NCBI RefSeq assembly: GCF_014672715.2
Contig: NZ_CP058566.2
Location: 1,302,001 to 1,366,000, forward strand
Direction of reading: 5' to 3'
Source of the DNA: Dehalogenimonas etheniformans
GTDB lineage: Bacteria; Chloroflexota; Dehalococcoidia; Dehalococcoidales; Dehalococcoidaceae
Length of the DNA: 64,000 nt
Made by a program: the position numbers and the translations under genes. Within the stretch, counting starts at the first letter, position 1, and every line of letters begins with the position of its first letter. Of this stretch, positions 50,302 to 64,000 are shown piece after piece. The notes beneath the pieces are model-generated. The model had not been told where the DNA came from. It worked only from the letters and a program-made list of their open reading frames with translations, and ran no database searches.

Positions 50302-52281
50302 ATGCTCACCCTAAATAACATTTCAAAGTCTTTCGGCGCCCGGAACCTTTTCAGCGGCGTGACATTCCATATAGGCGCACGCGACAGGACGGCTCTTTTA
50401 GGACCCAACGGGACTGGAAAGACTACCCTGTTTTCCTTGATCGCGGATGAAAACCCACCTGATGGAGGAACGATCACCCGACCCAAAGACATCACCATCG
50501 GGTACCTGAAGCAGGAAATCGACAATCAATCAGCAAAACCGCTGCTCGAAGAGGTGGCGGCCTCAGCGATACACACGGCGAAACTCGAACATCGAATAAG
50601 GGTATTACAGGAAGAGATAGCCGAAAACTCAGATGAAGAGGAACTGGAACCCCTGCTGAAAGAACTTGGCGAATTACAGCACCGCTTTGAAACAAGCGGC
50701 GGCTACGACGTAGAGCACGAGGCGAGGATGATCCTGACAGGATTGGGGTTTAAGGAGAGCGATTTCTTCAGACCGATGTCCGCGTTTTCCGGAGGCTGGA
50801 TAATGAGGGCGGAACTAGGCAAAATCCTGCTCCAGAATCCGGACCTGCTGCTCCTGGACGAACCTACAAACCATCTTGACCTTGAAACACAGTTGTGGTT
50901 CGAGAACTATCTCGCCAACTACCAGGGCGCGGCCCTGTTGACCTCCCACGACCGTGCCTTTCTGAACCGGGTGGTTCGACGGGTAGTTTCGCTCGAAAAC
51001 GAAAGAGCAAAGGTCTATGCGGGAAACCACGACGCTTTTGTCCTGGCACGGCAAAGAGAAATCGAAGGATTGGAAGCGGCAGCCGGCCGCCAGGCGGTCA
51101 AGATCGAAAAAGAGACCAGATTCATCGAACGTTTTCGATACAAGAACACCAAAGCAAAGCAAGTGCAGTCTCGAATCAAAGCATTGGATAAACTCCAGCG
51201 GGTCGAAGTGCCCAGACTGGTAAAAAAGATAAAATTCAGCTTCCCCGATCCACCACACTCAGGTGAAGAGGTAATTACCCTAAAGCATTTGGGCAAAGCC
51301 TATGGAGACAATGTCGTCTATAAGGATCTGAACCTTTCTCTCCGGCGCGGCGACAGGGTCGCTTTGATCGGTCCAAACGGCGCCGGTAAAAGCACCCTGC
51401 TAAAAATCCTGGCGGGCGTTCTGTCATTTGAAAAAGGCGAACGGCATCTTGGGTACAACGTCGTTTCAGCCTACTATGCCCAGCACCAGCTCGATCTGCT
51501 GGACAGCAACAATACCGTTATTCAAGAATTGAACTTGGTAGCACCCTTGGAAACGGAACAGCGGCTGAGGTCGATCCTCGGGGGTTTTTTATTCACCGGA
51601 GACGACGTCCAGAAAAAGGTCGGAGTGCTTTCCGGCGGTGAAAAAGCTCGGTTGGCTATTGCCAAGATGCTGACCCAACCGGCTAACCTTTTACTGATGG
51701 ACGAACCGACGAATCACCTGGATATCGCATCACGGGAAGTCCTGGCCGACGCCCTCGAAAGCTACAAGGGCACTCTGTGTTTCATTACCCATGACCGCAC
51801 TCTGATCAGCCAAACGGCCAATAAAATTATCGACATCAGAAACGGACAGGTCTCGGTCTATCCGGGCACTTACTACGAATATCTATATCACATGGAATCG
51901 GCCTCATCCATTTCAACGACAGGTTCACCGCAATCTGAAAAACACGTAATTTCTACAGAGCCAGCAGTCGATCCGCGGCGCCGGAGAGCGGCAGCCGGAG
52001 AAATCAGGAACGAATTCAACCGAAAACTCACTCCACTCAAAAACCGGATTACCCAGATCGAAGAAGAACTAGAACAGGACGAATCCGAACTAGCGGGAAT
52101 TGAACTAGAGTTTGCTAAACCCGAGGCTTATGGAGACTCCCAGGCAGTTGTTGCCAGAATCGAACGGCACAAGACGCTTAAAGCGAACATGCAAGAACGA
52201 ACCAGCGAGTGGGAAAACTTGATACGCGAAGAGGAAGAACTGCACACCAGTCTCAATAACGCGCTGGCCGCCCTAGATTAG
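50302..52281 (+). CDS. ABC-F family ATPase
   Basis: A soluble twin-ATPase protein of 659 residues, of the kind that acts on ribosomes. NBD1 has Walker A LGPNGTGKTT and FSGGWIMRAELGKILLQNPDLLLLDEPTNHLD. NBD2 has IGPNGAGKST and LSGGEKARLAIAKMLTQPANLLLMDEPTNHLD. The linker between them is the basic Uup/Ettr-type arm (KETRFIERFRYKNTKAKQVQSRIKALDKL). The C-terminus is a coiled coil (about 560-655). No transmembrane domain. Translation factor or antibiotic-protection roles cannot be told apart here. Confidence 0.92.
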   Translation: MLTLNNISKSFGARNLFSGVTFHIGARDRTALLGPNGTGKTTLFSLIADENPPDGGTITRPKDITIGYLKQEIDNQSAKPLLEEVAASAIHTAKLEHRIRVLQEEIAENSDEEELEPLLKELGELQHRFETSGGYDVEHEARMILTGLGFKESDFFRPMSAFSGGWIMRAELGKILLQNPDLLLLDEPTNHLDLETQLWFENYLANYQGAALLTSHDRAFLNRVVRRVVSLENERAKVYAGNHDAFVLARQREIEGLEAAAGRQAVKIEKETRFIERFRYKNTKAKQVQSRIKALDKLQRVEVPRLVKKIKFSFPDPPHSGEEVITLKHLGKAYGDNVVYKDLNLSLRRGDRVALIGPNGAGKSTLLKILAGVLSFEKGERHLGYNVVSAYYAQHQLDLLDSNNTVIQELNLVAPLETEQRLRSILGGFLFTGDDVQKKVGVLSGGEKARLAIAKMLTQPANLLLMDEPTNHLDIASREVLADALESYKGTLCFITHDRTLISQTANKIIDIRNGQVSVYPGTYYEYLYHMESASSISTTGSPQSEKHVISTEPAVDPRRRRAAAGEIRNEFNRKLTPLKNRITQIEEELEQDESELAGIELEFAKPEAYGDSQAVVARIERHKTLKANMQERTSEWENLIREEEELHTSLNNALAALD

Positions 52282-52323
52282 GCCTTGAGCTGACCATTTT
52301 TGTATTAGTGATAAAATAACAGT

Positions 52324-53205
52324 ATGAAAATTGGATTGTTCGATACGATCGATCCGGTCCCTGAACTGAAGAACCCGCATGTTATTGTGACCATCCCGCC
52401 ATGGCTAAATGCCGGCGAATCCGCCAGGTTAGCCGTCGAGTACCTCGAAAAACTAACCGACGCTCAGCCCCTGGCCAAGCTATCGTCTCCAGGGGAATTT
52501 TTCGATTTTACCCGCTACCGTCCGACGGTCTCATTGGTTGACGGCGGATCTCGTCTGGATATCCCAAATGCCACCGCCCGTTTCGGGAAAACTGACTCAA
52601 ACGACTTTATCTTGCTCCGGGCGCCCGAACCGCATACCAGATCGGAATCGTACATCGAATCCATCCTGGAATTCTTCAAGCATTTCAAAGTGAAACGCTA
52701 TTGCCTTTTAGGCTCAATGTACGAGATGCTGCCCCATACCCGGCCACCATTCGTTACCGGTTCAGCCAGCAGCCAGTGGCTGCAAAACAGCATCGAGGTC
52801 GCGGGGGTCGTCCCGAGCAACTATGAAGGTCCCACCTCGATAATGAGCCTTGTGGCTCAAGAGGCCAAGAAGCTGGGGATAGAAACCTTAAGCCTGGTCG
52901 TCCATCTGCCCATTTACCTCCCACTCCCTGTCGACCACCGTGGCGAGGTACCGCTGCTTGAAATCTGTGAATCTCTATATGGTATCCCTGTTCCCGTAGT
53001 CGACGTTGAAAAAGCCAAAGAGGAAAATGACCAGGTTAATTCGATGGCTGAGGCTTTCCTTAAAGAGCACCCGCAGCTTAGATTTATGCTTACCCAACTG
53101 GAAAACAATTACGATGCGCGGATTAAAAACCGGGAACAGGTCCGTTTATCACCGGAGATAGAAAAGTTTCTTCAGGATATGAGCCGCGGTTTCGAAGCCA
53201 GTTAA
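52324..53205 (+). CDS. PAC2-family protein
   Basis: A 293-residue protein of the PAC2 (proteasome assembly chaperone 2-like) family, common in archaea, actinobacteria and Dehalococcoidia. Recognisable blocks are HVIVTIPPWLNAGESARLAVEYL, DFTRYRP, YCLLGSMYEMLPHTRPPFVTGSAS and YEGPTSIMSLVAQEAKKLGIETLSLVVHLPIYLP. Its function is unknown in bacteria. The ATG lies 42 bases after the ABC-F gene and the peptidase follows 46 bases later, so the three may be co-transcribed. Confidence 0.85.
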   Translation: MKIGLFDTIDPVPELKNPHVIVTIPPWLNAGESARLAVEYLEKLTDAQPLAKLSSPGEFFDFTRYRPTVSLVDGGSRLDIPNATARFGKTDSNDFILLRAPEPHTRSESYIESILEFFKHFKVKRYCLLGSMYEMLPHTRPPFVTGSASSQWLQNSIEVAGVVPSNYEGPTSIMSLVAQEAKKLGIETLSLVVHLPIYLPLPVDHRGEVPLLEICESLYGIPVPVVDVEKAKEENDQVNSMAEAFLKEHPQLRFMLTQLENNYDARIKNREQVRLSPEIEKFLQDMSRGFEAS

Positions 53206-53251
53206 TTGCAGTCTAAACCTAAAATTAAACACCAATGAAAGAGACCCCCAC

Positions 53252-54406
53252 ATGGATTATGTAAAGATGCTGGCTGAACTAGTAGCTATCGATACAACAG
53301 TGCCGCCGGGTAATAACTACCGCAAAGCACTTGAATACCTTGTCCCGCATTTCGAAGACACCGGATTCAACACCGAATTGGTTGATATTCCACCCGAATT
53401 CTGCGAGGGCCGCCCCGGCAGATTAGCATTGATCGGGCACCGGAGACTGCCGGGCAAACCCCGCTTGATTTTTTACGGTCATGTCGACGTCGTACCCGCG
53501 CAAGGATGGCCCGCTTTCGAACCGCGTGTCGAAGAGGGAAAAATGTTCGGACGCGGCAGCGCCGATATGAAGGGCGGCATCATCGGTTTGCTGATCGGCT
53601 TCGAGAAGATCAAAAACTCTCAATTCAAATACGATGTCTCCGTGATGATAACAACCGATGAAGAACTCAGTCAGTCGGGGCAGATCCGCTTTCTCAGGCG
53701 GTACCTTGAACCAGTGAAGGATTCCATCGTCTGGTCTCTTGATTCCAACACCGGGGGAGTCGCCGTCGCGGGGCTTGGCGCGCTGCAAATGGAAATAAAG
53801 ATCGCGGGGAAATCGGTCCACTCCGGGCTTTCCCACCTCGGGGTTAACGCGATAGAACAAGCCGTGAGAGTTATGAACTCTTTGCTGGAGCTTAAATCCA
53901 AAGTAACTTCTAAGAAATCGGCCGTACCGGCACACCCGGACACCGGGCTTAAGTTCATGGAGCCGCGGTTGAACATCAATATGGTACATGGCGGGCTCAA
54001 AGCCAACATCGTGCCCGATGAATGCACGATAACTATTGACCGCCGCCTGATTCCTGAAGAAAGCCTCGAGGAGGCGGACAAGGAAATCCGAGACCTACTT
54101 AACCAGTTCAAGGACATCCGCTGGGAAATTTCTTATGGTCTGCGGGTGCCCACCGTCCCGCCTGCCAGCGGTCCGGCAGTAGAGCGGCTCGAAAAGCTGA
54201 TCAAGGAAGTCATGGGAACGACAGGGCAATTCGGCGAAATGGGTTCCGGCGATATGGGCATCATCGTCCACGATGAGTGGAAAGGTCAAGATTTCGGTCT
54301 CGGCGTGATCCGTACCGAGTGTAACATCCATGGAAAGGACGAATTCGTGTATTTGAAGGATGTAGAAGACCTGGGAGAAATAGTAGCCCGATATCTTAGC
54401 GAATAA
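53252..54406 (+). CDS. M20-family peptidase (ArgE/DapE/CPG2 type)
   Basis: A di-zinc deacylase/peptidase of 384 residues. Metal ligands and catalytic residues are visible: His and Asp in YGHVDVVPA, Asp in GRGSADMKGGIIG, and Glu pair in TTDEELSQSG. The dimerisation domain follows (about 180-290, KSVHSGLSHLGVNAIEQAVRVM). The substrate could be acetylornithine, succinyl-DAP or a dipeptide; no arg or dap genes are near. A 12-bp hairpin follows the stop. Confidence 0.9.
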   Translation: MDYVKMLAELVAIDTTVPPGNNYRKALEYLVPHFEDTGFNTELVDIPPEFCEGRPGRLALIGHRRLPGKPRLIFYGHVDVVPAQGWPAFEPRVEEGKMFGRGSADMKGGIIGLLIGFEKIKNSQFKYDVSVMITTDEELSQSGQIRFLRRYLEPVKDSIVWSLDSNTGGVAVAGLGALQMEIKIAGKSVHSGLSHLGVNAIEQAVRVMNSLLELKSKVTSKKSAVPAHPDTGLKFMEPRLNINMVHGGLKANIVPDECTITIDRRLIPEESLEEADKEIRDLLNQFKDIRWEISYGLRVPTVPPASGPAVERLEKLIKEVMGTTGQFGEMGSGDMGIIVHDEWKGQDFGLGVIRTECNIHGKDEFVYLKDVEDLGEIVARYLSE

Positions 54407-54438
54407 AAATCGGGAAGAGGAATGATTCTTCCCGATTT
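54407..54438. terminator. Terminator between the M20 peptidase and rdhA
   Basis: Twelve pairs, AAATCGGGAAGA/TCTTCCCGATTT, around an eight-base loop between the convergent genes. On the minus strand TTTATTC follows. Confidence 0.7.
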
Positions 54439-54532
54439 GAAGGCGATTAAGGTATGGTTAAACCAGTTTTGACAAACAGGTTACAAGTGATTTAATCCCT
54501 CTTATTTCGATATAGGCGAATTTTACCTTAGG

Positions 54533-56062
54533 TCAATAGCCTCCATTGTGGGAGCCAGCCACTGTGTCATAACCATAAGCTGGATAATCCTGCGCCCACC
54601 AACTATCTACTTTATTGGTTGAAGCTCCGTACCCAAAGGTCTTGGCACCCTGATAGAACAAACCATTGAAAATATCAGTCGTACCTACAATGCCTTTTAC
54701 AACCTGGTGCACCATGGCACCGGTATTCACGTTAAAGGTACAAGTAGACATGCACATTCCGCATTGGGCAGGCAGCCCGCTATAAGCATTGTAATAGTTA
54801 CAAGCCGGCGAATCGCTCCAAAATACCTTTTTACCCCTTCCGGCACATTTGTTTGGGGCGCTCGTCCGAGGCGGGATGCCTTGTTCATGTTCGAATGCTT
54901 TTTGTGGGGGATCCCAAGATGGTTCCTTATCGTAAGTAATAACTTGGGGTGGGCAGAAATCGGCGCATTTATGGCAAGAATGACAAAAGCGATTTAATCC
55001 TGCATCGATAGGATGGGTTGGCTCAAGTGGTAGATCAGTCATGAACTCGTAGTAACCATCTATTGGACCTCGCTCTGGGCTAATAGCAACACAATGGTTG
55101 CGCGCAAGTTCAGCGGTTCCACCGAGTACCGCCGACGCTTGGGCTGCCAACAGAGGGTATGGTCCCAAACCCAGACATTGAAAACCTAACGCTTTAATGA
55201 ACGCTTGAGCCGAATTCTCTACGTCGCCACGCAGGCGATACCGACTGATGTTCGCAGCGTCAAGAACCGCAGAAGGGTTGCATCGCCAAGCATCGCGCGA
55301 CATTGGGATCGTGAAACCTACGACAAACATTTTGGGGTTATTTGGAACAACGAACTTCTCGGGAGTCACATAACCTTGGTCAACATTCTCAATTTCGATT
55401 TTGCGAGACACTGTGATTGGCGGAGGCCATTGATCGATATATGTTGCATTAAATGTCGCACCACCCCTATCCCATGAACATAACAACTTCTTTTCATTTT
55501 CGGAAAACTCGCTAACGGCGATTGCCGCAGCACCATAGAAATTCATCGCCGCTCTAAGCATTCTCAAATTGTTTTCCGGGGAATCATTCCACCGTGGCAA
55601 GCCATAAAAATCCGGCCCGGTTACCGTAGGACCCGTCCAACTGCCTGTAGCCCAGACAGCTGCACCGAGGCGAAGGGCGTTGTCCCGGAGATTGAATCCC
55701 TTTTGGCCCTGAGTTACCGCGTCTTTTCGGCATTTACCTTGCATAATCCCCACGCCGCTAGTAGCTAATACATTTTTGATTTGGTCAGCCCCGTAATACT
55801 GAGCCATAGCATGGGTAACATGGGCTGTCTCTCGAGCGTCGTACCTGGTGGTTTGTGACCAATCAATCTCTATTGTGGGGTTCCCCAATTCGCGCTCTTT
55901 AACATACCAAGGTCTTTTCCAACCATTTGAGTTCGAAACGATTGCTTCATCAATATCATGGAAAACCGGGGTTATCGCAGCTGCACCTCCTGTTCCAACT
56001 GCAGTAAGTCCTACATACTTCATGAAATCCCGACGGCTTAATGTTGAATGGAATATGGACAT
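54533..56062 (-). CDS. rdhA: Reductive dehalogenase catalytic subunit (RdhA), first copy
   Basis: Corrinoid and Fe-S enzyme that removes halogens from organohalides at the outside of the membrane. Tat signal SRRDFMKYVGLTAVG (residues 9-23). Two cluster motifs: CHSCHKCADFCPP (about 358-370) and CGMCMSTC (about 433-440) with an extra upstream Cys. The length (509 residues) is normal for RdhA. No classical B12-binding motif is expected in this family. No rdhB anchor gene lies on either side. Upstream are two B12-binding radical SAM genes. A short leader ORF with direct repeats precedes the ATG (GGAGC ribosome site). The substrate cannot be predicted. Confidence 0.93.
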   Translation of the reverse strand: MSIFHSTLSRRDFMKYVGLTAVGTGGAAAITPVFHDIDEAIVSNSNGWKRPWYVKERELGNPTIEIDWSQTTRYDARETAHVTHAMAQYYGADQIKNVLATSGVGIMQGKCRKDAVTQGQKGFNLRDNALRLGAAVWATGSWTGPTVTGPDFYGLPRWNDSPENNLRMLRAAMNFYGAAAIAVSEFSENEKKLLCSWDRGGATFNATYIDQWPPPITVSRKIEIENVDQGYVTPEKFVVPNNPKMFVVGFTIPMSRDAWRCNPSAVLDAANISRYRLRGDVENSAQAFIKALGFQCLGLGPYPLLAAQASAVLGGTAELARNHCVAISPERGPIDGYYEFMTDLPLEPTHPIDAGLNRFCHSCHKCADFCPPQVITYDKEPSWDPPQKAFEHEQGIPPRTSAPNKCAGRGKKVFWSDSPACNYYNAYSGLPAQCGMCMSTCTFNVNTGAMVHQVVKGIVGTTDIFNGLFYQGAKTFGYGASTNKVDSWWAQDYPAYGYDTVAGSHNGGY

Positions 56063-56075
56063 TCAATTTGCTCCT

Positions 56076-56159
56076 TTATGATTTTTCTCGGCTCCCTCTG
56101 GTCTCTCCCGAATACCCTCCGGTCTCTCCCGAATGCCAGTACATTGGTTACTTCCTCCT
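56076..56159 (-). promoter_or_regulatory. rdhA leader with short ORF and tandem 21-mers
   Basis: AGGAGG (56154-56159) lies nine bases before an ATG at 56144 that opens a 22-codon ORF ending at 56076, 13 bases before the rdhA start. Two adjacent 21-mers with one mismatch (56094-56114 and 56115-56135) each contain ATTCGGGAGAGACC on the minus strand. The leader of the other rdhA has related repeats. It could be a leader peptide or operator. Confidence 0.55.
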
Positions 56160-56231
56160 ATATTCACCCAATAGTGGAATACGAACTAGCCACCTCCACA
56201 GAGCACTGGGTATGGTATTTACTTCCTGGGT

Positions 56232-57716
56232 CTAGGTAGAACATCTCGGCTTCAGGGACGCGGGCTCAGGCGATACAGACTTGCCGTTGAACACGCTGGC
56301 ATATTGTTCTCTGCGGATTTTCTGCAGCTTATTCATATGCAAGTGGTATTTCAGGAGTTCCTTCATCTCCCGGTAGAGTTTGGCTGGATTGGTGAAAGCC
56401 AGCAGGAAATAGGCCGGATTATGCCGCACTGTAAACATGAACCGAACTTTGGCGTAGGTATGGTTGAAATGGGCGACATACTCGTCGATCATCTCCTGGG
56501 GCACCTGGCTCAAATTGACCTTGTGGCCGTGAGAAACGATGAATTCCGGCCACTCTTCCAAGCTCTGGGGTGCCTTGATAAGATTGTTGTTGACACAGTA
56601 GTCATAGAGCACGCTGCCAGGGATGGGGATGAAGCGAGATAGGAGATAAGCCGGGTTATCCAGCCGGTCGAGCATGGATCTTGTCGATTTCATATCCTCC
56701 ACTGTCTCCGTCGGGAAGCCATAGATAAGATAAATGACGATCCTGATCTTGTGCTTGGTCAGGAGCCAGAAGGTCTTCTCCATCTGCTCAAGAGAGATAC
56801 CCTTCTGGATGAAGTCCAGCATCCTCTGGGAGCCGGTCTCGGGTCCAAGACCCATGGCGACACAGCCGGCTTTTTTCATCAGGATAATGTCGGCTTCAGA
56901 TAGGTCGGCACGTGACTCGCAGGCCCACTTCACCTTGTTCTTGCGTTCGATGAGGATCTTGCACACCTGGCGAAGACGCTTTCTGTTGAAGGCGAAATTG
57001 TCTTCGTTGAAGCGGACAAACTTGGCATTGTAAAGTTTCTGCACTCTCTCAAGCTGCTCGACGACCCTTTCTGCTGAAAGCTCTGAAGCATATCCCCGGT
57101 CGAAGGCACTGTGGTAACAGTAAGCACATTTGTAAGCACACCCTCTTGAAGTTGAAAGGCCGATCTCCGAATACCTCTCCATCTTGACCAGATGCCAGGC
57201 AGGATCAGGGAGTTCATCGAGGTTCTTGATGAAAGGCCTTCTCTCATTGATAACCGGCTTGCCGTCCACCTTATAGCCAAGACCTTTTATCTCGGAGAGG
57301 GCAGGAGTCCCAGTCTCGAGATGTGTAACCAAGTCGAGCATGGTGTACTCGCCGGCGCCCATGACGACGAAATCAACATATGGCTCTATAACACACTGGG
57401 CGGGGAGGACGGTGGGTTGTAGATTTCCCCAGGCGATCTTAACATCGGGCAGTAATGCCTTGAACTGCTTCGACTGGAGGATGGAGCCTTCGAGGTAAGG
57501 CCCGGCGATCACCGAAAAGCCGATGAGGGCAGGTTTCCACTCCACAAAATCCTCAGGCTTCCTCTCATCGACGAATCCGTCGTAGATCTGCACCTCATGG
57601 CCTGCCCGCTCGAGTGTGGCGGCGATGTACAGGAGGCCATTAGCCAGGGTACAGCGAGCCTTGTTGTAATAAGCCTGATAGGTCGGCGAGGCGGCGTTAA
57701 CCAGTAAGACTTTCAT
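56232..57716 (-). CDS. B12-binding radical SAM protein (downstream copy)
   Basis: A 494-residue protein. The N-terminal cobalamin-binding domain (about 1-150, MKVLLVNAASPTYQAYYNKA, GLLYIAATLERAGHEVQIYDGF) lacks the classical DxHxxG signature. The radical SAM core follows, with CAYKCAYC (about residues 191-198) and FNEDNFAFNRKRL. A C-terminal helical part (PIPGSVLYDYCVNNNLI) completes it. Such class B enzymes methylate or rearrange unactivated carbons. ATG 57716 is five bases from AGGAGG, which overlaps the end of the upstream paralogue. The role beside rdhA is unknown. Confidence 0.88.
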   Translation of the reverse strand: MKVLLVNAASPTYQAYYNKARCTLANGLLYIAATLERAGHEVQIYDGFVDERKPEDFVEWKPALIGFSVIAGPYLEGSILQSKQFKALLPDVKIAWGNLQPTVLPAQCVIEPYVDFVVMGAGEYTMLDLVTHLETGTPALSEIKGLGYKVDGKPVINERRPFIKNLDELPDPAWHLVKMERYSEIGLSTSRGCAYKCAYCYHSAFDRGYASELSAERVVEQLERVQKLYNAKFVRFNEDNFAFNRKRLRQVCKILIERKNKVKWACESRADLSEADIILMKKAGCVAMGLGPETGSQRMLDFIQKGISLEQMEKTFWLLTKHKIRIVIYLIYGFPTETVEDMKSTRSMLDRLDNPAYLLSRFIPIPGSVLYDYCVNNNLIKAPQSLEEWPEFIVSHGHKVNLSQVPQEMIDEYVAHFNHTYAKVRFMFTVRHNPAYFLLAFTNPAKLYREMKELLKYHLHMNKLQKIRREQYASVFNGKSVSPEPASLKPRCST

Positions 57717-57718
57717 CA

Positions 57719-59191
57719 TTACCTCCTTGTCGTTGCAGCGACGGGAACAAGCGTCTGCTCTTTGGTTTCACCGGAGAGCTTCTTTTTAACCACCTTGTAG
57801 AAGCCGTTGACCTGGGTGTGGTACTTGACAAGCTCCCAGAGTTCCCTGGAAAACTTCTTTGGATCAGTGAAGGCGGTGAGGAAGTAGGACGGGTTGTGCT
57901 TCAGAGTAAAGCGGAAACGCTGGACAGCGTAGGTCGCTCTCCAGTGAGCGGCGGCCTCGCTCAACATCTCCTCCGGTACTTCAGAGATGTTGATCTGGTT
58001 GCTGAATCTCATGAGGTATTCCGGCCAGCCTTCCAGTTTCTCGGGAAGGGTGACCAGACCGTGCTTGACACAGTAATCGAAGAGGACGCTGCCGGGGAAG
58101 GGGACGAAACGGTTGTACATATAGTAGGGATCATCGAGGTCCTTCAGCATTCTTTGAGTAGCCTGAAAATCAGTTACGGTCTCGGTGGGGAAACCGTACA
58201 TGATGTAGACAGAGGTACGAATCCCGGCTTTAACCAAGCTCCAGAAAGTCTTCTCCATTTCAGGCACGGTGATATCTTTCTGAATGAAGTCCAGCATCCG
58301 CTGGGATCCTGTCTCAAGGCCAAGACCGACGGCGACACAGCCAGCTTTCTTCATCAAGGCGATATCGGTGTCGGATAGATCAGCCCTTGAATCACAACTC
58401 CAGTTGATTTTGAGTTTCTCCTCGATGAGGAGTCTGCAGAGCTCGCGTAGTCTCTTCCGATTAAATGTGAAGTTATCTTCGTTGAAGCGGATGTACTTCG
58501 CTCCGTACTTCTCTTTGAGGTGCTTTATCTGGGAGATGATCCGCTCAGCACCGAGGAAGCCGACGTATCCCTGGTTGTAGGTCTTGTTGTAGCAGAAGGC
58601 GCAGTGGTGAGCGCAGCCACGGGATGTGTTTAAGCCAATAACGGAATACTTCTTGACGTCCACCAGGTGCCAGGCCGGGTCCGGCATGGATTCCAGGTCT
58701 TTGATGAACTCGCGGCGTTCGTTGACGATAACATTGCCATCGCGCCTGAAGGCAAGACCTTTGATAGAGTCGAGAGAAGGGGAACCGATTCTCAAGTGCT
58801 CAAGAAGTTCTAGCAGAGTAAACTCACCCGCGCCGATAACAACGAAATCAACGGAATCTTCAGCCAGTGTCTGCTCCACCATGATAGAAGGGTGGACATT
58901 GCCCCAGGCGATCGTGGCTTCCGGCAGAAGCGATTTGAATTCCCTGGACTGGGCTACCGAGCCCTCGAGGTTGGGCCCGGTGATGACCGAAAAACCGATC
59001 AGGTCGGGGTTGAAGGCGACAAAATCCTTCGGCTCCCGCTCGTCGACGAAACCGTCGTAGATCCGGACCTCATGGCCAGCCCTCTCTAAGGCAGAGGCAA
59101 TATACAGCAGGCCGTTGGGCAGGTTGGTGTATGCCTGCGAGTAATACTGCCGATAAGCCGGGGTAGCCGAGGTGACGAGCAGGACTTTCAT
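57719..59191 (-). CDS. B12-binding radical SAM protein (upstream copy)
   Basis: A close paralogue of the next gene, 490 residues with the same architecture: MKVLLVTSATPAYRQYYSQA, GLLYIASALERAGHEVRIYDGFVDEREP, then the cluster motif CAHHCAFC (about 191-198) and RFNEDNFTFNRKRL. It clearly arose by tandem duplication. ATG 59191 follows GGAGG by eight bases; the longer frame to 59272 runs through a hairpin and is unlikely. Transcribed after rdhA. The two genes are translationally coupled (stop overlaps the ribosome site/start region). Confidence 0.88.
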   Translation of the reverse strand: MKVLLVTSATPAYRQYYSQAYTNLPNGLLYIASALERAGHEVRIYDGFVDEREPKDFVAFNPDLIGFSVITGPNLEGSVAQSREFKSLLPEATIAWGNVHPSIMVEQTLAEDSVDFVVIGAGEFTLLELLEHLRIGSPSLDSIKGLAFRRDGNVIVNERREFIKDLESMPDPAWHLVDVKKYSVIGLNTSRGCAHHCAFCYNKTYNQGYVGFLGAERIISQIKHLKEKYGAKYIRFNEDNFTFNRKRLRELCRLLIEEKLKINWSCDSRADLSDTDIALMKKAGCVAVGLGLETGSQRMLDFIQKDITVPEMEKTFWSLVKAGIRTSVYIMYGFPTETVTDFQATQRMLKDLDDPYYMYNRFVPFPGSVLFDYCVKHGLVTLPEKLEGWPEYLMRFSNQINISEVPEEMLSEAAAHWRATYAVQRFRFTLKHNPSYFLTAFTDPKKFSRELWELVKYHTQVNGFYKVVKKKLSGETKEQTLVPVAATTRR

Positions 59192-59238
59192 TCTATTTAC
59201 CTCCATCAGGTTTGGGCCGCGCTGTCCGGATGTTACTT

Positions 59239-59270
59239 GTTGGTTCCGGGAGGATTCTCCCGGAACCAAC
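59239..59270 (-). other. Very stable hairpin between rdhA and the radical SAM pair
   Basis: Fourteen perfect pairs, GTTGGTTCCGGGAG/CTCCCGGAACCAAC, with a four-base loop and no T-tail on either strand. It lies between the rdhA stop and the next ribosome site. It looks more like an mRNA processing or stability element than a full terminator. Confidence 0.65.
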
Positions 59271-59284
59271 AAACCAAAGCCAGA

Positions 59285-60853
59285 TTATAGGAATGGAGGA
59301 CTCTTCCATTTGCTATAACCACCATCATGGGCAGGGATGGTTGAATCCTGACCAAGGACCGGCAGATCGTACTCGAAGAAATGGTCGATCTTATCAGGAG
59401 CAGTCCGAGGCCAAGCGCCATAACCAAAGAGATCACCGAGCTTATAGGCTTGACCATTCAGAGCGCTAAAATTGGAGATGACACTGCGGATGACCTGATG
59501 AATCTGGGAGCCGCGATTGGTAGTAAAGGTACATTCCGCCCAGCACACCAGGCAACGGCCAGTCTCAAGACCGAACTGGCGGCACAACGGGCTGTCCTGA
59601 ATGAAGGCTTTTGTCCCATCGACGGACCACCGTGCAGTCTTGCCTGCATAACCCGGTTGTGACGCAGGATCACGACTACCGGCAGTGGCTGCATCACGTT
59701 CGAAGGTGGGTTCTTTAGCCTGGGAAATAGCGCCAGGCGGACAGTGATCAGCGCACTTGTGACAGCTGTGGCAAAAACGGAAAAGACCAGCATCGATTGG
59801 CTTACTGGAGGCCATGGGAAGATTGGTGGCAGGGGTATAAAGCCGGCCGGGAGCACCCTTTTCCGGTGTTAAGGTATAAAGCTGCTGGCGGGAAGCTTCA
59901 CCAAGTCCTGATAGGACAGCGACCGCCCCCTCTGATCCAATATAAGTTGTATCATTACCGATAACGCCTATCATCCAATAGCCGAGATACCTCAGGAAAC
60001 TATAGGTAGACGCATGGCAGTTAGCTACGTTGTTAAACGTGTTGGCGTTGGCTAAACTGCCACAGGGCGTAGGCGCCAGCCGCCACAACTCGTTAGCGCC
60101 ACCCATGGTCATGCTCCATTCGAAAACATCCTGGTTTGATGGGATCACGAGTTTGGTGGTAGTCGAATATGGCTGATCCACGGCTTCGAACACTATCGGT
60201 CGGGCAGCTGTGGCAGGCGGAGGCCAGGCATCGATATACTGGTCACCATTAGCCTTATCGCTATTGGCAAAGACAACGTGGTCCTTATCTTCCTGGGACA
60301 TCTCTACCGGATACATCAATTCGCCGCCGTACATGCGGATGGCAGTCCGTAGCAACAGAGTGCCTTCCTCTGGTGTACCGGTCCACTTCGGCTCGCCGCG
60401 CTCCGCCGGTGATTTTGATGGGGCAGGAACGGTTGTTTCAGCCCAAGTTGGGGCCGTTGCTGCGGCGACCCGCTTATAGGCGTTATTCAGAGCCTGAAAT
60501 CGTGTGTCCCAGCCAGGCTTACCGGCGGCGATCTGGGCTTTTTCGTAAGCCGCACCAGTGGTCGCACTGGCCAGCACGCGGTCTTTACCCAGGTAGTAGG
60601 CACGCATGTAAGATGATTGCCCCTGGAGAGTGGAATCGTGCCGGTGCATCAGGCTGTAATCGATATCGATGGTCGGTTTATCGACCTCTTTGACCCACCA
60701 TGGCCGTCCCGAATGGGCGGCACCATCTGATATGAGTTCGTCCAGATCGTGAAAAACGGGCCTAACCAGGGATGTGACGCCTACACCGGCGCCACCCAAG
60801 CCGAGGGCTTTCATGAACTGCCTGCGGCTCACAGTACTGTGAAACATAGACAT
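59285..60853 (-). CDS. rdhA: Reductive dehalogenase catalytic subunit (RdhA), second copy
   Basis: A 522-residue RdhA. Tat signal SRRQFMKALGLGGAGVG; both copies begin MS(I/M)FHST.SRR. Cluster motifs: CHSCHKCADHCPP (about 359-371) and CLVCWAEC (about 431-438) with an upstream Cys in PLCRQFG. Conserved Trp-rich RPWWVKEVDKPTIDID follows the signal. No rdhB is found. It lies between an activase-like radical SAM gene and two B12-binding radical SAM genes, all on the minus strand. The leader has a short ORF and paired repeats as in the other copy. ATG behind AAAGGAG. Confidence 0.93.
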   Translation of the reverse strand: MSMFHSTVSRRQFMKALGLGGAGVGVTSLVRPVFHDLDELISDGAAHSGRPWWVKEVDKPTIDIDYSLMHRHDSTLQGQSSYMRAYYLGKDRVLASATTGAAYEKAQIAAGKPGWDTRFQALNNAYKRVAAATAPTWAETTVPAPSKSPAERGEPKWTGTPEEGTLLLRTAIRMYGGELMYPVEMSQEDKDHVVFANSDKANGDQYIDAWPPPATAARPIVFEAVDQPYSTTTKLVIPSNQDVFEWSMTMGGANELWRLAPTPCGSLANANTFNNVANCHASTYSFLRYLGYWMIGVIGNDTTYIGSEGAVAVLSGLGEASRQQLYTLTPEKGAPGRLYTPATNLPMASSKPIDAGLFRFCHSCHKCADHCPPGAISQAKEPTFERDAATAGSRDPASQPGYAGKTARWSVDGTKAFIQDSPLCRQFGLETGRCLVCWAECTFTTNRGSQIHQVIRSVISNFSALNGQAYKLGDLFGYGAWPRTAPDKIDHFFEYDLPVLGQDSTIPAHDGGYSKWKSPPFL

Positions 60854-60872
60854 TCTGTTTTTCTCCTTTCAA

Positions 60873-60944
60873 TTAATAAACCGTGTTGTCTTTCCCACCG
60901 TCATCCGGTCTTTCCCGGAAGCCAACCGTCATTTTTATCCTCCC
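60873..60944 (-). promoter_or_regulatory. rdhA leader with short ORF and GGGAAAGAC repeats
   Basis: GGGAGG (60939-60944) lies six bases before an ATG at 60932 opening a 19-codon ORF that ends at 60873, 19 bases before the rdhA ATG. GGGAAAGAC occurs twice on the minus strand (60916-60908 and 60896-60888), 20 bases apart. The GGC-TTCCGGGAAAGACCGGA stretch resembles the other rdhA leader, but in another reading frame. Confidence 0.55.
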
Positions 60945-60959
60945 GATTTCTCTCAAACG

Positions 60960-61772
60960 CTAAACCAGCACTGGTATCCTGGCACTCTTGATACTAGGCT
61001 GTTCGGCAAAATCCAATTCAGCTTCAGTGGGGAAAATGCTCCTAACGCTGAATTCCCTAGGGGCGTCACGCAGGAAATGAACATTGTTGAGGTGCTTGCG
61101 AGCGGCCAACGCAGCCTTTTCAACGTCTTCGACGGTCGCCCTGGGCCAGGGGTTATCGGCGACCCTTGAATAGGCATCGAGGTGATAAAGCATCCCTGAA
61201 TCAATTGAGGCGATGAACCTGGCTAACTTTTCGATCTCTTCCGAGTCTATGTAGCCCGGGATGACTACAGTTTCTGCCAGCATAGGCACTCCGGAATCGT
61301 AGATTCGCTTAAAGTTCTTGAGGATCAATTGGTTAGAATGCCCGGTATAGTCAATATGGAGATCTTCATCGAAAGCCTTCAATCCAAAGGCCACTCTGTC
61401 GACATGAGCCAGATCCGGCATGTTTAGCCCATTGGTGAGGAGGATATTCGTCGTTGAAAGCCTGCGGTGCAGTGTTTCGGCGATCAACGGCATCGCCGGA
61501 TCGAGGGAGGCTTCCTGGCCTTCAAAGAGGACCGACCTGGCTTCAAGGTCGACCAAGGTATCGATAACCCCGTCGAAATCAATGAACCGGTTGGGCATCG
61601 AGGCTTCACCGTCCGGTTCCGCCAGATAGAGATCCATGTTGCGGTCAAGCATGGAATCGAAGGGAATCTTGCGAAGGATGCAGCCCCGGCAGGCGATGTT
61701 GCAGCCGCGGAAATGAAGGTAAGCCTGCTTAATCGAGTCGGCAAAGGCGATATTATAAACCATGGTTAGCAT
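60960..61772 (-). CDS. Radical SAM protein, activase-like
   Basis: A 270-residue radical SAM protein with the cluster motif at its N-terminus, C24-NIA-C28-RG-C31, in the position typical of pyruvate-formate-lyase-activating and organic radical activating enzymes. Later blocks: TTNILLTNGLNMPDL, DLHIDYTGHSN, and PMLAETVVIPGYIDSEEIEKLARF. There is no glycyl-radical enzyme in the window. ATG 61772 is chosen for its GAGG at five bases; a TTG one codon upstream and ATG 61763 are alternatives. First enzyme of the rdh locus, behind a large inverted-repeat leader. Confidence 0.82.
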   Translation of the reverse strand: MLTMVYNIAFADSIKQAYLHFRGCNIACRGCILRKIPFDSMLDRNMDLYLAEPDGEASMPNRFIDFDGVIDTLVDLEARSVLFEGQEASLDPAMPLIAETLHRRLSTTNILLTNGLNMPDLAHVDRVAFGLKAFDEDLHIDYTGHSNQLILKNFKRIYDSGVPMLAETVVIPGYIDSEEIEKLARFIASIDSGMLYHLDAYSRVADNPWPRATVEDVEKAALAARKHLNNVHFLRDAPREFSVRSIFPTEAELDFAEQPSIKSARIPVLV

Positions 61773-61795
61773 CAATTCCTCACCTGTTGTTTATT

Positions 61796-61921
61796 CGGCA
61801 AGCCTTGCGGTGAAACCCGATTACACCCGGGGAGGCCCACGGGAGGGGTTTCACAGCGTTTTATACCGGATCGGTCGCAACAATCCGGACACCCCGGTTT
61901 CCCCCACCGCAAGGCTTGCCG
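61796..61921 (-). promoter_or_regulatory. Large inverted-repeat leader with alternative pairings
   Basis: A perfect 17-base inverted repeat, CGGCAAGCCTTGCGGTG (61796-61812) / (61905-61921), can be extended past a bulge by GAAACC/GGTTTC. The GTGAAACC segment (61810-61817) can instead pair with GGTTTCAC (61847-61854). A CCGGAT/ATCCGG hairpin lies inside. It sits between the 27-aa ORF and the radical SAM start. It could be a regulatory RNA or a MITE-like insertion. It does not match riboswitches I know. Confidence 0.55.
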
Positions 61922-61963
61922 TGATAATGACGGAAATTCCAAGATACAAACTCCAAATTCCAA

Positions 61964-62047
61964 CTAGCTTCGCTCTGCCCGCAGACGATCCGCGCCAATT
62001 AAAGAAATCGCCACCATGAAAATGAAGATCCCAAGCTCGATAATCAT
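61964..62047 (-). CDS. 27-residue membrane peptide coupled to the receiver gene
   Basis: A short ORF whose ATG overlaps the stop of the receiver protein (ATGA). GGGAGG lies seven bases upstream. The peptide is a single hydrophobic helix (MIIELGIFIFMVAISLIGA) followed by a basic tail (DRLRAERS). Coupling and the ribosome site support translation. It is far too short to be a normal RdhB anchor. Confidence 0.55.
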   Translation of the reverse strand: MIIELGIFIFMVAISLIGADRLRAERS

Positions 62048-62391
62048 TGTCTCGCCTCCCAAAGGGTTGCTTTCACCCGTTCCTGTAGTTCGATCTTATC
62101 CAGTGGTTTGTACAGGTAGTCGTCAGCTCCGGCATCCAGGGCTCCAATCAGCCGCTCCGCACTGCCGTTGTGATCTGCGAGGAGAATGACCGGAACGCCG
62201 GGCCGGGTTTTGAGGCCGCTTAAAATCTCATCCGATGCATTGTGCTCAAGGTCGACAATGACCAATCCGGCGGAATCAATACCGCCTTGTCCAGGCCAAG
62301 TGCTGACTTTAACGCCTGATATGCTCCTTTCGAGGGTCCTTTTAATGTCCATGAAGACGTCACGATTGTCTTCGGCAACGAGTATGTCCAT
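62044..62391 (-). CDS. Stand-alone response-regulator receiver protein
   Basis: A 115-residue CheY-like receiver without an output domain. Acidic pocket in ILVAEDNRDVF, probable phospho-acceptor Asp in GLVIVDLEHN, and Lys in YKPLDKIEL. ATG 62391 follows GAGGGGAAA; the longer frame adds a sequence unlike a receiver. It lies between an OmpR-type regulator and the rdh-linked radical SAM gene. No kinase is in view. Confidence 0.85.
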   Translation of the reverse strand: MDILVAEDNRDVFMDIKRTLERSISGVKVSTWPGQGGIDSAGLVIVDLEHNASDEILSGLKTRPGVPVILLADHNGSAERLIGALDAGADDYLYKPLDKIELQERVKATLWEARQ

Positions 62392-62544
62392 TTTCCCCTC
62401 GCGTTCCCTGATTGATACCAGTCTAAATGAACACACCCACGCACCCGGCAACAGCTTGCAACAGTAAAAAAACTGTAAGAAGCATAATTGGCACTAACAA
62501 ACACGTAAAAAAACCAAGTGACACGAAAGGTAACAATCTTCATA

Positions 62545-62576
62545 AAACAAGGCTCTCCTTTCGGAGAGCCTTGTTT
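62545..62576 (-). terminator. Terminator after the OmpR-type regulator
   Basis: Fourteen pairs, AAACAAGGCTCTCC/GGAGAGCCTTGTTT, with the loop bases TTTC (plus strand). It lies just after the regulator stop and is followed on the minus strand by TTATG. It separates the regulator from the receiver gene. Confidence 0.8.
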
Positions 62577-62594
62577 GGCTAACGTTTGTTCCGG

Positions 62595-63275
62595 TTACGA
62601 CGGAGAAATCAAGCGGAAACCGATTCCTCTCTCGTTAACCAGCATGGGCGACCGGGCATCAGCCTCCAGCTTGGCTCTCAAGCGGTCAACATATACCCTA
62701 ATGGCTTTGCTTGAGCCGGGGTAGTCCTCACCCCACAGCTCACGTGCGATGCTGCGATAAGAGGTGACCTGGCCGCAGTTGCGCATCAGGTGCTGGAGGA
62801 TGATATTTTCTGCCCGGGTCAAAGGCACTTCCCGCCCCATGAAATATGCCCGATGGATAAAGGCATCCAAACGCAACAAACCACTGACCAGTGATTGACT
62901 TTCAGCTCGCCCACGTACCCGCCGCAGAAGGGCTTTGGTCCGGGCGATGAATTCGATCTGCTTGATCGGCTTGGTCAGGCATTCATCGGCGCCGATGTCC
63001 AGGCAGCGGACAAGATCGACTTCGTTCAAATCGTTTTTGACGGCGACGATGGGCACCATTGAGAAAAGTACCAGTCTTTTCAGGAAATCGAAACCGCTCA
63101 TATCGGGCAGTTTGAGATCAGTGACCACAAGATCAAAACGTTCCCGTTCCGCCAGGTCCAATCCTTCTTCGCCTGAAGAACATGGAACTACACTCACATC
63201 AGGCCACGGGATTTTGAGAGTTGAACCGATGATTTCGGTACATTCTGGATCACCGTCGATAACGAGTACTTGCAT
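62595..63275 (-). CDS. OmpR/PhoB-family response regulator
   Basis: A 226-residue two-domain regulator. Receiver (1-115): VLVIDGDPECTE, phospho-acceptor in DLVVTDLKLPDMSG and Lys in LTKPIKQIEF. The DNA-binding winged helix (about 125-226) contains LTRAENIILQHLMRNCGQVTSYRSIARELWGEDY and IRVYVDRLRAKLEADARSP. ATG 63275 follows AAGGGGAC. The usual partner kinase is absent. It is the most obvious candidate controller of the rdh genes downstream, by position only. Confidence 0.92.
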   Translation of the reverse strand: MQVLVIDGDPECTEIIGSTLKIPWPDVSVVPCSSGEEGLDLAERERFDLVVTDLKLPDMSGFDFLKRLVLFSMVPIVAVKNDLNEVDLVRCLDIGADECLTKPIKQIEFIARTKALLRRVRGRAESQSLVSGLLRLDAFIHRAYFMGREVPLTRAENIILQHLMRNCGQVTSYRSIARELWGEDYPGSSKAIRVYVDRLRAKLEADARSPMLVNERGIGFRLISPS

Positions 63276-63452
63276 CTGTCCCCTTTGCTGATCAAGAATC
63301 CGATCTAGCAATTTGATTTTAGGTCTTGTGCAGGTGAGGACAAATACGTATTGCTACCTATTTTTGACTGAAACGGTACTAATTCTCTCAATTACATCAT
63401 TTGCAATATTAATACCGATAACATTGAGGGCCACGGAAAGGCTTATTAAGAG

Positions 63453-63713
63453 TTAACCACCCATACGGCGGTAGTACAAATAAAGGGCGATAGCGATAGC
63501 CAGAATGATAAAGGAAACGATGTTGGCGGAAATAATAACGACATCTCCCAAATGGATGCCGTAAATGCCCCATATGGTTACTCCAATCAAGAACTGGCCC
63601 AGAGTCATGAGGCTGATATCCTTGACGCACCTGGTACGCCGCATCTTGATGATCTGTGGAACAAAACCAAAGGTCGTCAAGAGGGCCGCAATGGCGCCCA
63701 CCACATACCACAT
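63453..63713 (-). CDS. SemiSWEET-type sugar transporter (MtN3/PQ-loop)
   Basis: An 86-residue protein with three membrane helices. The PQ motif is in ALLTTFGFVPQIIKMRRTRCVKDISLMTLGQFLIGVTIWGIYGI. SemiSWEETs work as homodimers to move small sugars. An ATG start follows GGAGAAGCG. It ends about 180 bases upstream of the OmpR-type regulator on the same strand, without an obvious link to it. Confidence 0.88.
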   Translation of the reverse strand: MWYVVGAIAALLTTFGFVPQIIKMRRTRCVKDISLMTLGQFLIGVTIWGIYGIHLGDVVIISANIVSFIILAIAIALYLYYRRMGG

Positions 63714-63805
63714 TCGAACGCTTCTCCTTTGTTTCTCATGGGGTCTTTGTCTTTATGTAACGTGGCATTATACAATAATTTAATTTACTTACTAACGGAG
63801 GAACC

Positions 63806-64000
63806 TTGGCAAAGTTGGCGCTGGATCTCCATGACATCTACAATCGCGGCGCGGCGATCGAATCTGAACTCAACCGGGTGATCTCCGAGGCGGTGGCAAA
63901 AAAAGTTTCAATAGTCGAGATAATCCCAGGAAAGGGCTCCGGCCAGTTGAAAAAACACGTTCTCAGGTTCCTGGCCCAACCAGAGATAAAGAAGCTGTAC
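63806..64000 (+). CDS. Smr-domain protein (3' end missing)
   Basis: The first 65 residues of a Smr (small MutS-related) domain protein: KLALDLHDIYNRGAAIESEL gives the LDLH motif, and EIIPGKGSGQLKKHVLRFL gives the conserved GxG-type segment. Smr domains are nucleases or RNA-binding modules. A TTG start follows GGAGG. Because the Smr motif begins at the start codon, this is a free-standing Smr protein, not MutS2. The gene runs off the window. Confidence 0.85.
   Translation, partial: MAKLALDLHDIYNRGAAIESELNRVISEAVAKKVSIVEIIPGKGSGQLKKHVLRFLAQPEIKKLY

Follow-up and report, generated by a model that had tools for sequence, protein, structure and literature searches.

Dehalogenimonas and Dehalococcoides, two genera that clean up chlorinated solvents, are mostly unable to make their own corrinoid, and the fitting of scavenged cobamides to dozens of reductive dehalogenases (RdhA) is a practical question. 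Cobamide remodelling is described for CbiZ, which cleaves the aminopropanol amide of cobamides, and for CbiB, which converts cobyric acid back to cobinamide phosphate (passages of PMC7733943 and PMC3541065); CbiR provides a precedent for a remodelling enzyme found through gene neighbourhoods, and the pathways as described in the passages cited contain no radical S-adenosylmethionine (SAM) step (PMC7733943). DUF71 proteins of the B12 type are predicted to act in B12 salvage, and five DUF71 homologues are given for Dehalococcoides CBDB1 (excerpts of PMC3541065). Maturation genes near Dehalococcoides rdhAB have been reported (in a section of PMC2764846), and rdhF-rdhI, likewise near rdhAB, were proposed to serve RdhA maturation, rdhF as a corrinoid-synthesizing and rdhI as a corrinoid-modifying gene (in part of the text of PMC5574268). 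Here we describe a run of five genes in the window, by which we mean the whole analysed stretch of 64,000 nucleotides of Dehalogenimonas etheniformans DNA (contig NZ_CP058566.2, positions 1,302,001 to 1,366,000), in which an activase-like radical SAM gene (ACT, a name used here for both gene and family) and two B12-binding radical SAM genes (B12-rSAM) are lined up with two rdhA genes.

ACT and B12-rSAM represent two families that are under strong purifying selection, are expanded in Dehalogenimonas and have corrinoid uptake, salvage or B12-dependent enzymes as their common theme. They share runs with the remodelling genes cbiZ and cbiB. On the basis of gene neighbourhood, we propose, with a probability of about 0.55, that ACT and B12-rSAM act on the corrinoid during salvage, the rdhA-linked isozymes serving particular dehalogenases. 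After its uptake and before its insertion, the scavenged corrinoid would be their target, at its ring, its side chains or its nucleotide loop. The attachment of that loop would be opened and rebuilt by CbiZ and CbiB, with DUF71 and a CbiE-like methylase in assisting roles, and the radical SAM enzymes would perform a C-H-level change or repair damaged corrinoid. Module copies in putative rdhA operons would supply a suitable cofactor while that dehalogenase is produced, and the window would hold one of several such rdhA-dedicated copies of a corrinoid-tailoring module. We advance only tentatively the bolder idea that two unnamed radical SAM families with the corrinoid cofactor itself as substrate form a new cobamide-remodelling branch alongside CbiZ, CbiB and DUF71, duplicated into Dehalogenimonas rdhA operons and giving single dehalogenases a cofactor that is tailored to them or repaired. 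Should the two families work on the corrinoid, their genes may be required for making active RdhA in a heterologous host, and these dehalogenases may carry a cofactor other than plain cobalamin. The two families offer testable genes for the fitting of scavenged cobamides to RdhA.

The rdhA gene run of the window

Five intact open reading frames follow one another on the minus strand in the order ACT, rdhA, B12-rSAM 1, B12-rSAM 2 and rdhA, and their Pfam and TIGR02486 matches bear out the arrangement proposed in the initial annotation, namely two paralogous B12-binding radical SAM genes between two rdhA genes with an activase-like gene upstream. ACT (60960..61775, 271 amino acids (aa)) has Radical_SAM (PF04055, E 1.9e-15) as its only Pfam match above cut-off and is devoid of a B12-binding domain. 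The rdhA genes at 59285..60853 (522 aa) and 54533..56062 (509 aa, the final gene of the run) encode proteins that exceed the TIGR02486 cut-off of 160.35 bits (212.2 and 237.5 bits) and match PF13486 (E 3e-32 and 8e-39), each with a twin-arginine signal and two iron-sulfur (Fe-S) motifs. B12-rSAM 1 (57719..59191, 490 aa) and B12-rSAM 2 (56232..57719, 495 aa) are 56% identical, and each is above the Pfam cut-offs for B12-binding (PF02310, E 2.7e-18 and 3.5e-15) and Radical_SAM (PF04055, E 1.7e-23 and 2.6e-20); a CxxxCxxC motif and the Radical_SAM domain are present in all three radical SAM proteins. The gene coordinates of the initial annotation stand except for one start: the reading frame of B12-rSAM 1 extends to a TTG at 59272, but alignment and the ribosome-binding site indicate that the gene very likely begins at the ATG at 59191, behind GATGGAGGTAAATAG.

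The genes of the run are closely spaced, with ~106 bp between ACT and rdhA, ~93 bp between rdhA and the ATG of B12-rSAM 1, a 1-bp overlap between the B12-rSAM genes and 169 bp before the last rdhA, and ribosome-binding sites are visible ahead of them. No terminator-like site was predicted on the minus strand in any gap, a scan that says little because promoter-like and terminator-like sites were no commoner than in shuffled sequences. At the corresponding locus of a close relative (G002, locus L023; fetched loci are cited by L numbers), ACT and rdhA are followed by three B12-rSAM genes, and the last rdhA is absent. The four genes shared with the G002 orthologues have ratios of nonsynonymous to synonymous substitution rates of 0.03-0.07 (0.056 for rdhA 59285..60853, 0.038 for B12-rSAM 1 and 0.030 for B12-rSAM 2), which indicates purifying selection on these four genes.

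The initial annotation had also noted the lack of the anchor gene rdhB and had suggested a lipid anchor among the possible targets of the radical SAM enzymes. The former observation holds: a profile built from 10 RdhB of related loci gave no match at E<=10 when all six frames of the 64 kb were searched, and the same profile recovered two RdhB-like reading frames outside its building set. That rdhB-less rdhA occur in Dehalogenimonas, as the annotation stated, agrees with the published sections cited, according to which most rdhA of the genus are without rdhB (PMC4918011 and PMC13390414, in part). The absence of rdhB from the window would suit a scenario in which RdhB is replaced by a lipid or peptide modification that the radical SAM enzymes introduce, but runs of the order rdhA-rdhB-ACT-ACT-B12rSAM are present in three genomes (L017, L024 and L039), so the radical SAM genes are not stand-ins for rdhB, and the chains of most rdhB-less rdhA are free of radical SAM genes. 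We therefore rejected the anchor substitute as a likely role and regard it as highly improbable, and this part of the earlier proposal loses support.

Corrinoid and rdhA neighbourhoods of the two families

The host genome is a single contig of 2.07 Mb with ~52 rdhA loci, and the rdhA statistics below refer to this genome, with 52 merged loci, 2 of them weak matches, and a remnant at 601760 excluded; neighbouring genes were labelled by BLAST matches to a few query proteins from the window and the fetched loci, and the BtuF labels depend on a family that includes other binding proteins. The B12-rSAM clade was found in 8/8 Dehalogenimonas genomes with 55 copies in total, of which 14 close copies, the window's two included, lie in the host genome. 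A search at E<=1e-40 detected it in 0/3 Dehalococcoides genomes, and a scan of the other 385 genomes sampled from the class, for which four candidates of each genome were scored at E<=1e-100, detected no copy; these are the limits at which we call it restricted to Dehalogenimonas. A scan of named genomes returned only distant relatives in other phyla, with best segments of 21-34% identity.

The linkage of B12-binding radical SAM genes to rdhA that the initial annotation proposed extends to the relatives, contrary to the refuting case named there of radical SAM genes that are not near rdhA in related genomes: 28/55 copies lie within 3.5 kb of an rdhA on the same strand. By the same measure, cbiZ is near 14/55, DUF71 near 7/55 and ACT near 29/55 copies, and 43/55 have rdhA, cbiZ or DUF71 in reach. 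For the host genome, 8/14 copies lie within 3 kb of an rdhA, a number that none of 5000 circular shifts reached (mean 1.85), and 5/14 lie within 300 bp (p 0.009 by circular shifts).

Context divides the B12-rSAM tree. One clade, present in all 8 genomes, holds the cbiZ-linked copies (14/14), each of them followed by cbiZ; a separate subclade holds the DUF71-linked copies (7/7); and a third clade, which includes the window's two proteins, has ACT and, for most members, rdhA as linked genes. Since the cbiZ-linked member is the most widespread, the rdhA-linked copies appear to be a later expansion. Two irregular members of the family were seen as well. A paralogue at L016:11950-13338 and L038:4913-6301, retained in two genomes, keeps only one of the three cysteines of the radical SAM motif (as seen in L016) and is possibly a catalytically dead partner, and at L012:9528-10972, after ACT, a frame reads as fused B12-rSAM and DUF71 pieces, a decaying module beside several rdhA.

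ACT is more widely distributed. It occurs in 11/11 genomes of the family with 74 copies (the window's and 73 others), 14 of them, the window's included, in the host genome, and in 10 further Dehalococcoidia genomes in a scan in which at most 6 candidates were scored at E<=1e-60. The neighbours within 2.5 kb were counted for the 84 ACT from these 21 genomes (74 from the family and 10 others): a gene for corrinoid uptake or salvage is present at 47/84, rdhA at 37/84 and nrdJ at 26/84, and at least one of the three kinds at 79/84. Of the remaining five, three belong to ACT-B12rSAM clusters, one is at a contig end and one stands beside another radical SAM gene. For comparison, a random 800-bp place in the host genome falls within 2.5 kb of rdhA or cbiZ, counting those two gene types only, 12.7% of the time. 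Outside the family, where loci were picked by sequence and not by context, 9/10 ACT adjoin btuF/btuC, cobA, cbiZ, DUF71, nrdJ or rdhAB, and the tenth is at a contig end. In the host genome, 8/14 ACT are within 3 kb of an rdhA (circular shifts, p 0.002) and just 3/14 within 300 bp (p 0.07). In Dehalococcoides, ACT stands beside rdhAB and cbiZ (L181), but the B12-rSAM clade was not found in the 3 Dehalococcoides genomes, which sets the Dehalogenimonas arrangement apart from rdhF-rdhI; ACT or CbiZ may be among the genes so named. A version of ACT with an N-terminal extension of ~130 aa lies directly behind rdhB at L017:6789-8000 (no Pfam match in the extension), L024:6761-7975 and L039:5083-6294. 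ACT also lies directly upstream of nrdJ, the gene of a B12-dependent ribonucleotide reductase, in several Dehalococcoidia families (L141, L152, L156, L157, L160, L161, L177, L179 and L184), twice behind rdhAB.

The key neighbours were confirmed by Pfam as CbiZ (PF01955, E 8.7e-47 and 2.6e-41), CbiB (PF03186), a CbiE-like tetrapyrrole methylase and DUF71 (PF01902), and elsewhere in the class, beside ACT, as CobA (PF02572), FecCD/BtuC-type permeases, periplasmic binding proteins, DUF71 and class II NrdJ. In ten closed genomes, 15/37 cbiZ lie within 300 bp of ACT or B12-rSAM (mean of 2000 circular shifts 0.44, largest 4) and 27/37 within 5 kb (shift mean 1.66); G007, with 40 contigs, was excluded from the circular-shift statistics. 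Furthermore, a run of a response regulator gene, rdhA, ACT, cbiZ and cbiB at L010, together with ACT-cbiZ-cbiB at L009 and L039, ties rdhA, ACT and the remodelling genes together. In the DUF71 neighbours, inspected by eye, the His characteristic of the B12 type replaces Dph6 Glu188 (YHT in 10/11 copies, YLT in L004), and the full published motif is not retained. The recurrence of both families beside cbiZ, cbiB, cobA, btuC/btuF, DUF71 and nrdJ, often with no rdhA close by, gives strong independent support to that part of the initial proposal in which the radical SAM enzymes modify or repair the corrinoid.

The same neighbourhoods bear on a role in the activation of corrinoid proteins, in which ACT, and perhaps B12-rSAM, would give electrons or an adenosyl group to the bound corrinoid and reactivate RdhA or NrdJ while the corrinoid skeleton stays unchanged. 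The adjacency of ACT to nrdJ and rdhA, and in several loci to cobA or cbiB, would fit this role, as would its compact and confidently modelled radical SAM fold. However, cobA, coding for the ordinary adenosyltransferase, is already present in several of the same runs (L130, L140, L148 and L153), and the tandem B12-rSAM genes are left unexplained, so that we judge such an activation to be quite unlikely.

Folds and candidate substrates

The B12-rSAM model (predicted local distance difference test (pLDDT) 90.2) has AprD4 (Z 30.0, root-mean-square deviation 3.0 over 401 residues) and OxsB (Z 29.3) as tied top folds, followed by MgmA (Z 28.7). It shares with class 1 cobalamin-dependent radical SAM enzymes (OxsB, TsrM and TokK; also MgmA, BchE, HpnJ and BzaD) an N-terminal B12-binding Rossmann domain ahead of the barrel, with PF02310 above cut-off, a CxxxCxxC radical SAM barrel and a helical C-terminal part. 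It differs from them in scoring under every listed NCBIfam equivalog cut-off, in its linkage to rdhA, cbiZ and DUF71, and in that its corrinoid binding is a prediction. A BchE-, HpnJ-, BzaD- or MgmA-like equivalog was accordingly rejected, the best score being 168.9 bits against 481.35 for BchE. In class 1 enzymes, which have no His ligand, a residue of the loop after strand 3 lies under the cobalt, Asn186 in OxsB (a passage of PMC13331322); at this position the B12-rSAM family has I, L, A or S in 20/21 aligned sequences and G in one (by eye), residues that would be consistent with base-off corrinoid binding. The similarity to AprD4, a radical SAM diol dehydratase, amounts to 22% identity and is confined in sequence to the radical SAM part.

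The best PDB match of the ACT model (pLDDT 95.2) is pyruvate formate-lyase activating enzyme (Foldseek E 2.8e-14), whose compact fold it shares. ACT differs from glycyl-radical activases such as PflA and YjjW in its corrinoid context, in scoring far below the cut-off of every activase model and in missing a PF01228 partner: PF01228 glycyl-radical enzymes were found in 0/11 family genomes, class III NrdD lying outside the search, and the control was positive in 3/14. Because PF01228 is absent from the 11 family genomes, ACT is not a usual glycyl-radical activase, and this candidate was rejected.

These folds would also fit protein maturation, in which the radical SAM enzymes would modify the RdhA polypeptide (ACT also NrdJ), perhaps methylating a carbon close to the corrinoid or Fe-S site in the way that MgmA and Mmp10 act on methyl-coenzyme M reductase. 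The B12-rSAM fold is near that of MgmA, a protein methylase, the ACT fold is near that of an enzyme acting on a protein, ACT also adjoins nrdJ, and both families are linked to rdhA in putative operons. On the other side, relatives of ACT and B12-rSAM stand beside cbiZ, cbiB, cobA and btu genes with no rdhA nearby, and most RdhA have no module in their chain. In the host genome, the RdhA linked to radical SAM genes are scattered across the RdhA tree and form no clade; an effect of one RdhA subfamily was rejected on this account, and the scatter speaks mildly against maturation of the polypeptide and is as expected if the cofactor, rather than one RdhA subfamily, is the target. Taken together, modification of the RdhA protein seems to us an unlikely, though not far-fetched, account.

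The genes may have gathered near B12 salvage genes for a joint corrinoid supply, since B12-rSAM and RdhA both consume corrinoid, while the substrates of the radical SAM enzymes would be unrelated, such as a lipid, a tRNA or a small molecule. The B12-rSAM proteins score best, though far under cut-off, against BchE and HpnJ, which have tetrapyrrole and lipid substrates, and a cyclopropane-fatty-acid-synthase-like gene was seen by eye near one locus (L026). Against this stand ACT, which has no B12-binding domain and yet the strongest corrinoid context, and the dedicated paralogues in separate rdhA operons, which a housekeeping substrate would hardly explain; shared supply thus appears improbable.

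Several observations weigh against action on the corrinoid during salvage, the reading we prefer. The evidence on the substrate is gene neighbourhood throughout, and the use of B12 by B12-rSAM as their own cofactor could by itself draw the genes to B12 loci, an objection that is weakened, not removed, by ACT, which is without a B12 domain. AprD4 acts on an aminoglycoside precursor and is not known to require cobalamin; as it is the tied closest fold, the B12-binding domain label alone is no proof of a corrinoid. Where ACT is linked to nrdJ, its service to B12 enzymes could be of a different kind, such as reductive activation. Among the 55 B12-rSAM, 12 have neither rdhA nor cbiZ/DUF71 in reach and belong mostly to ACT-B12rSAM clusters, and the 14 cbiZ-linked tips do not count as 14 events, since they go back to one or two ancestral arrangements that 8 genomes have preserved. 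In the host genome, cbiZ is not significantly near rdhA (2/5 within 3 kb, p 0.13), and the chains of 36/50 RdhA contain no radical SAM gene; therefore the module is either dispensable for some RdhA or acts in trans.

In open-licence full texts of PubMed Central, judged mostly from the starts of their abstracts, no paper on these radical SAM families beside rdhA or cbiZ was found, and the word 'radical' is absent from the main text of a 2026 comparison of Dehalogenimonas.

Leader hairpins and associated genes

Both rdhA genes of the run are preceded on the minus strand by a hairpin with a GARAGA loop. That of rdhA 54533..56062 lies at 56115..56136 (16-nt stem-loop 56118-56133; cmsearch 27.9 bits), with a second copy of the motif, carrying one mismatch, at 56097..56112, and that of rdhA 59285..60853 lies at 60901..60922 (16-nt stem-loop 60904-60919; 33.1 bits); both hairpins are training members of the covariance model. 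Counted free of any pairing rule, the motif YGGGARAGACCRGA with <=2 mismatches was present in 30/97 distinct 130-nt rdhA leaders, compared with 1/307 leaders of other labelled genes and 17/3000 random stretches. With the pairing rule, the numbers were 39/97 rdhA leaders, 19/307 other leaders, 167/3000 random stretches and 1/97 reverse-complemented rdhA leaders. The motif is strand-specific, lies mostly 45-85 nt ahead of the rdhA start codon and is also found in Dehalococcoides (L176, L181 and L183). In the alignment, both-side changes occur in all five stem pairs (32 of 33 sites; L014, in which the loop is absent, was excluded), a covariation that is biased upward because the members were picked with the pairing rule. 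When the covariance model was run against 1.03 Mb of fetched DNA, a good part of which comes from rdhA neighbourhoods, every one of its top 37 matches, placed by eye, fell at an rdhA leader. Second copies are among them, as is a match ahead of a remnant of rdhA that follows three B12-rSAM (L001:9736), and 4 of the best 33 matches were outside the training set. No Rfam family, the cobalamin riboswitch included, reached its gathering score in window positions 52000-64000 or in L002, L003, L008, L009 and L010, and the two window rdhA leaders gave weak, chance-level Rfam matches only. The GARAGA stem-loop is thus likely an rdhA leader element, which suggests that each rdhA of the run is under its own leader control; a hairpin common to many rdhA would offer a handle on rdhA regulation. 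The remnant in L001 is the C-terminal part of an rdhA (L001:9725-10012) that retains its leader hairpin (L001:9736-9758) and follows ACT and three B12-rSAM, so that the locus is a decayed version of the arrangement in the window.

Upstream of ACT and across a 268-bp gap, a receiver-only response regulator (62044..62451, minus strand; PF00072, E 2.5e-8) and an OmpR-type response regulator (62595..63311, minus strand; PF00072 and PF00486) are possible regulators of the run, and no histidine kinase gene is evident beside them between 62044 and 64000.

Two other radical SAM families recur at the fetched loci. The PqqD-like domain is typical of peptide-modifying enzymes, and a 720-aa radical SAM protein with such a domain at its C-terminus is encoded at L002:1470-3635, L001:11648-13804, L040, L044 and L052, near rdhA in 4/5 of these loci; in the L002 copy a B12-binding domain scores just under cut-off. 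A further, MoaA-like family of ~440 aa recurs beside ACT, B12-rSAM and rdhA (L001:10079-11404, L015:6632-7954, L016, L027, L035, L038 and L173).

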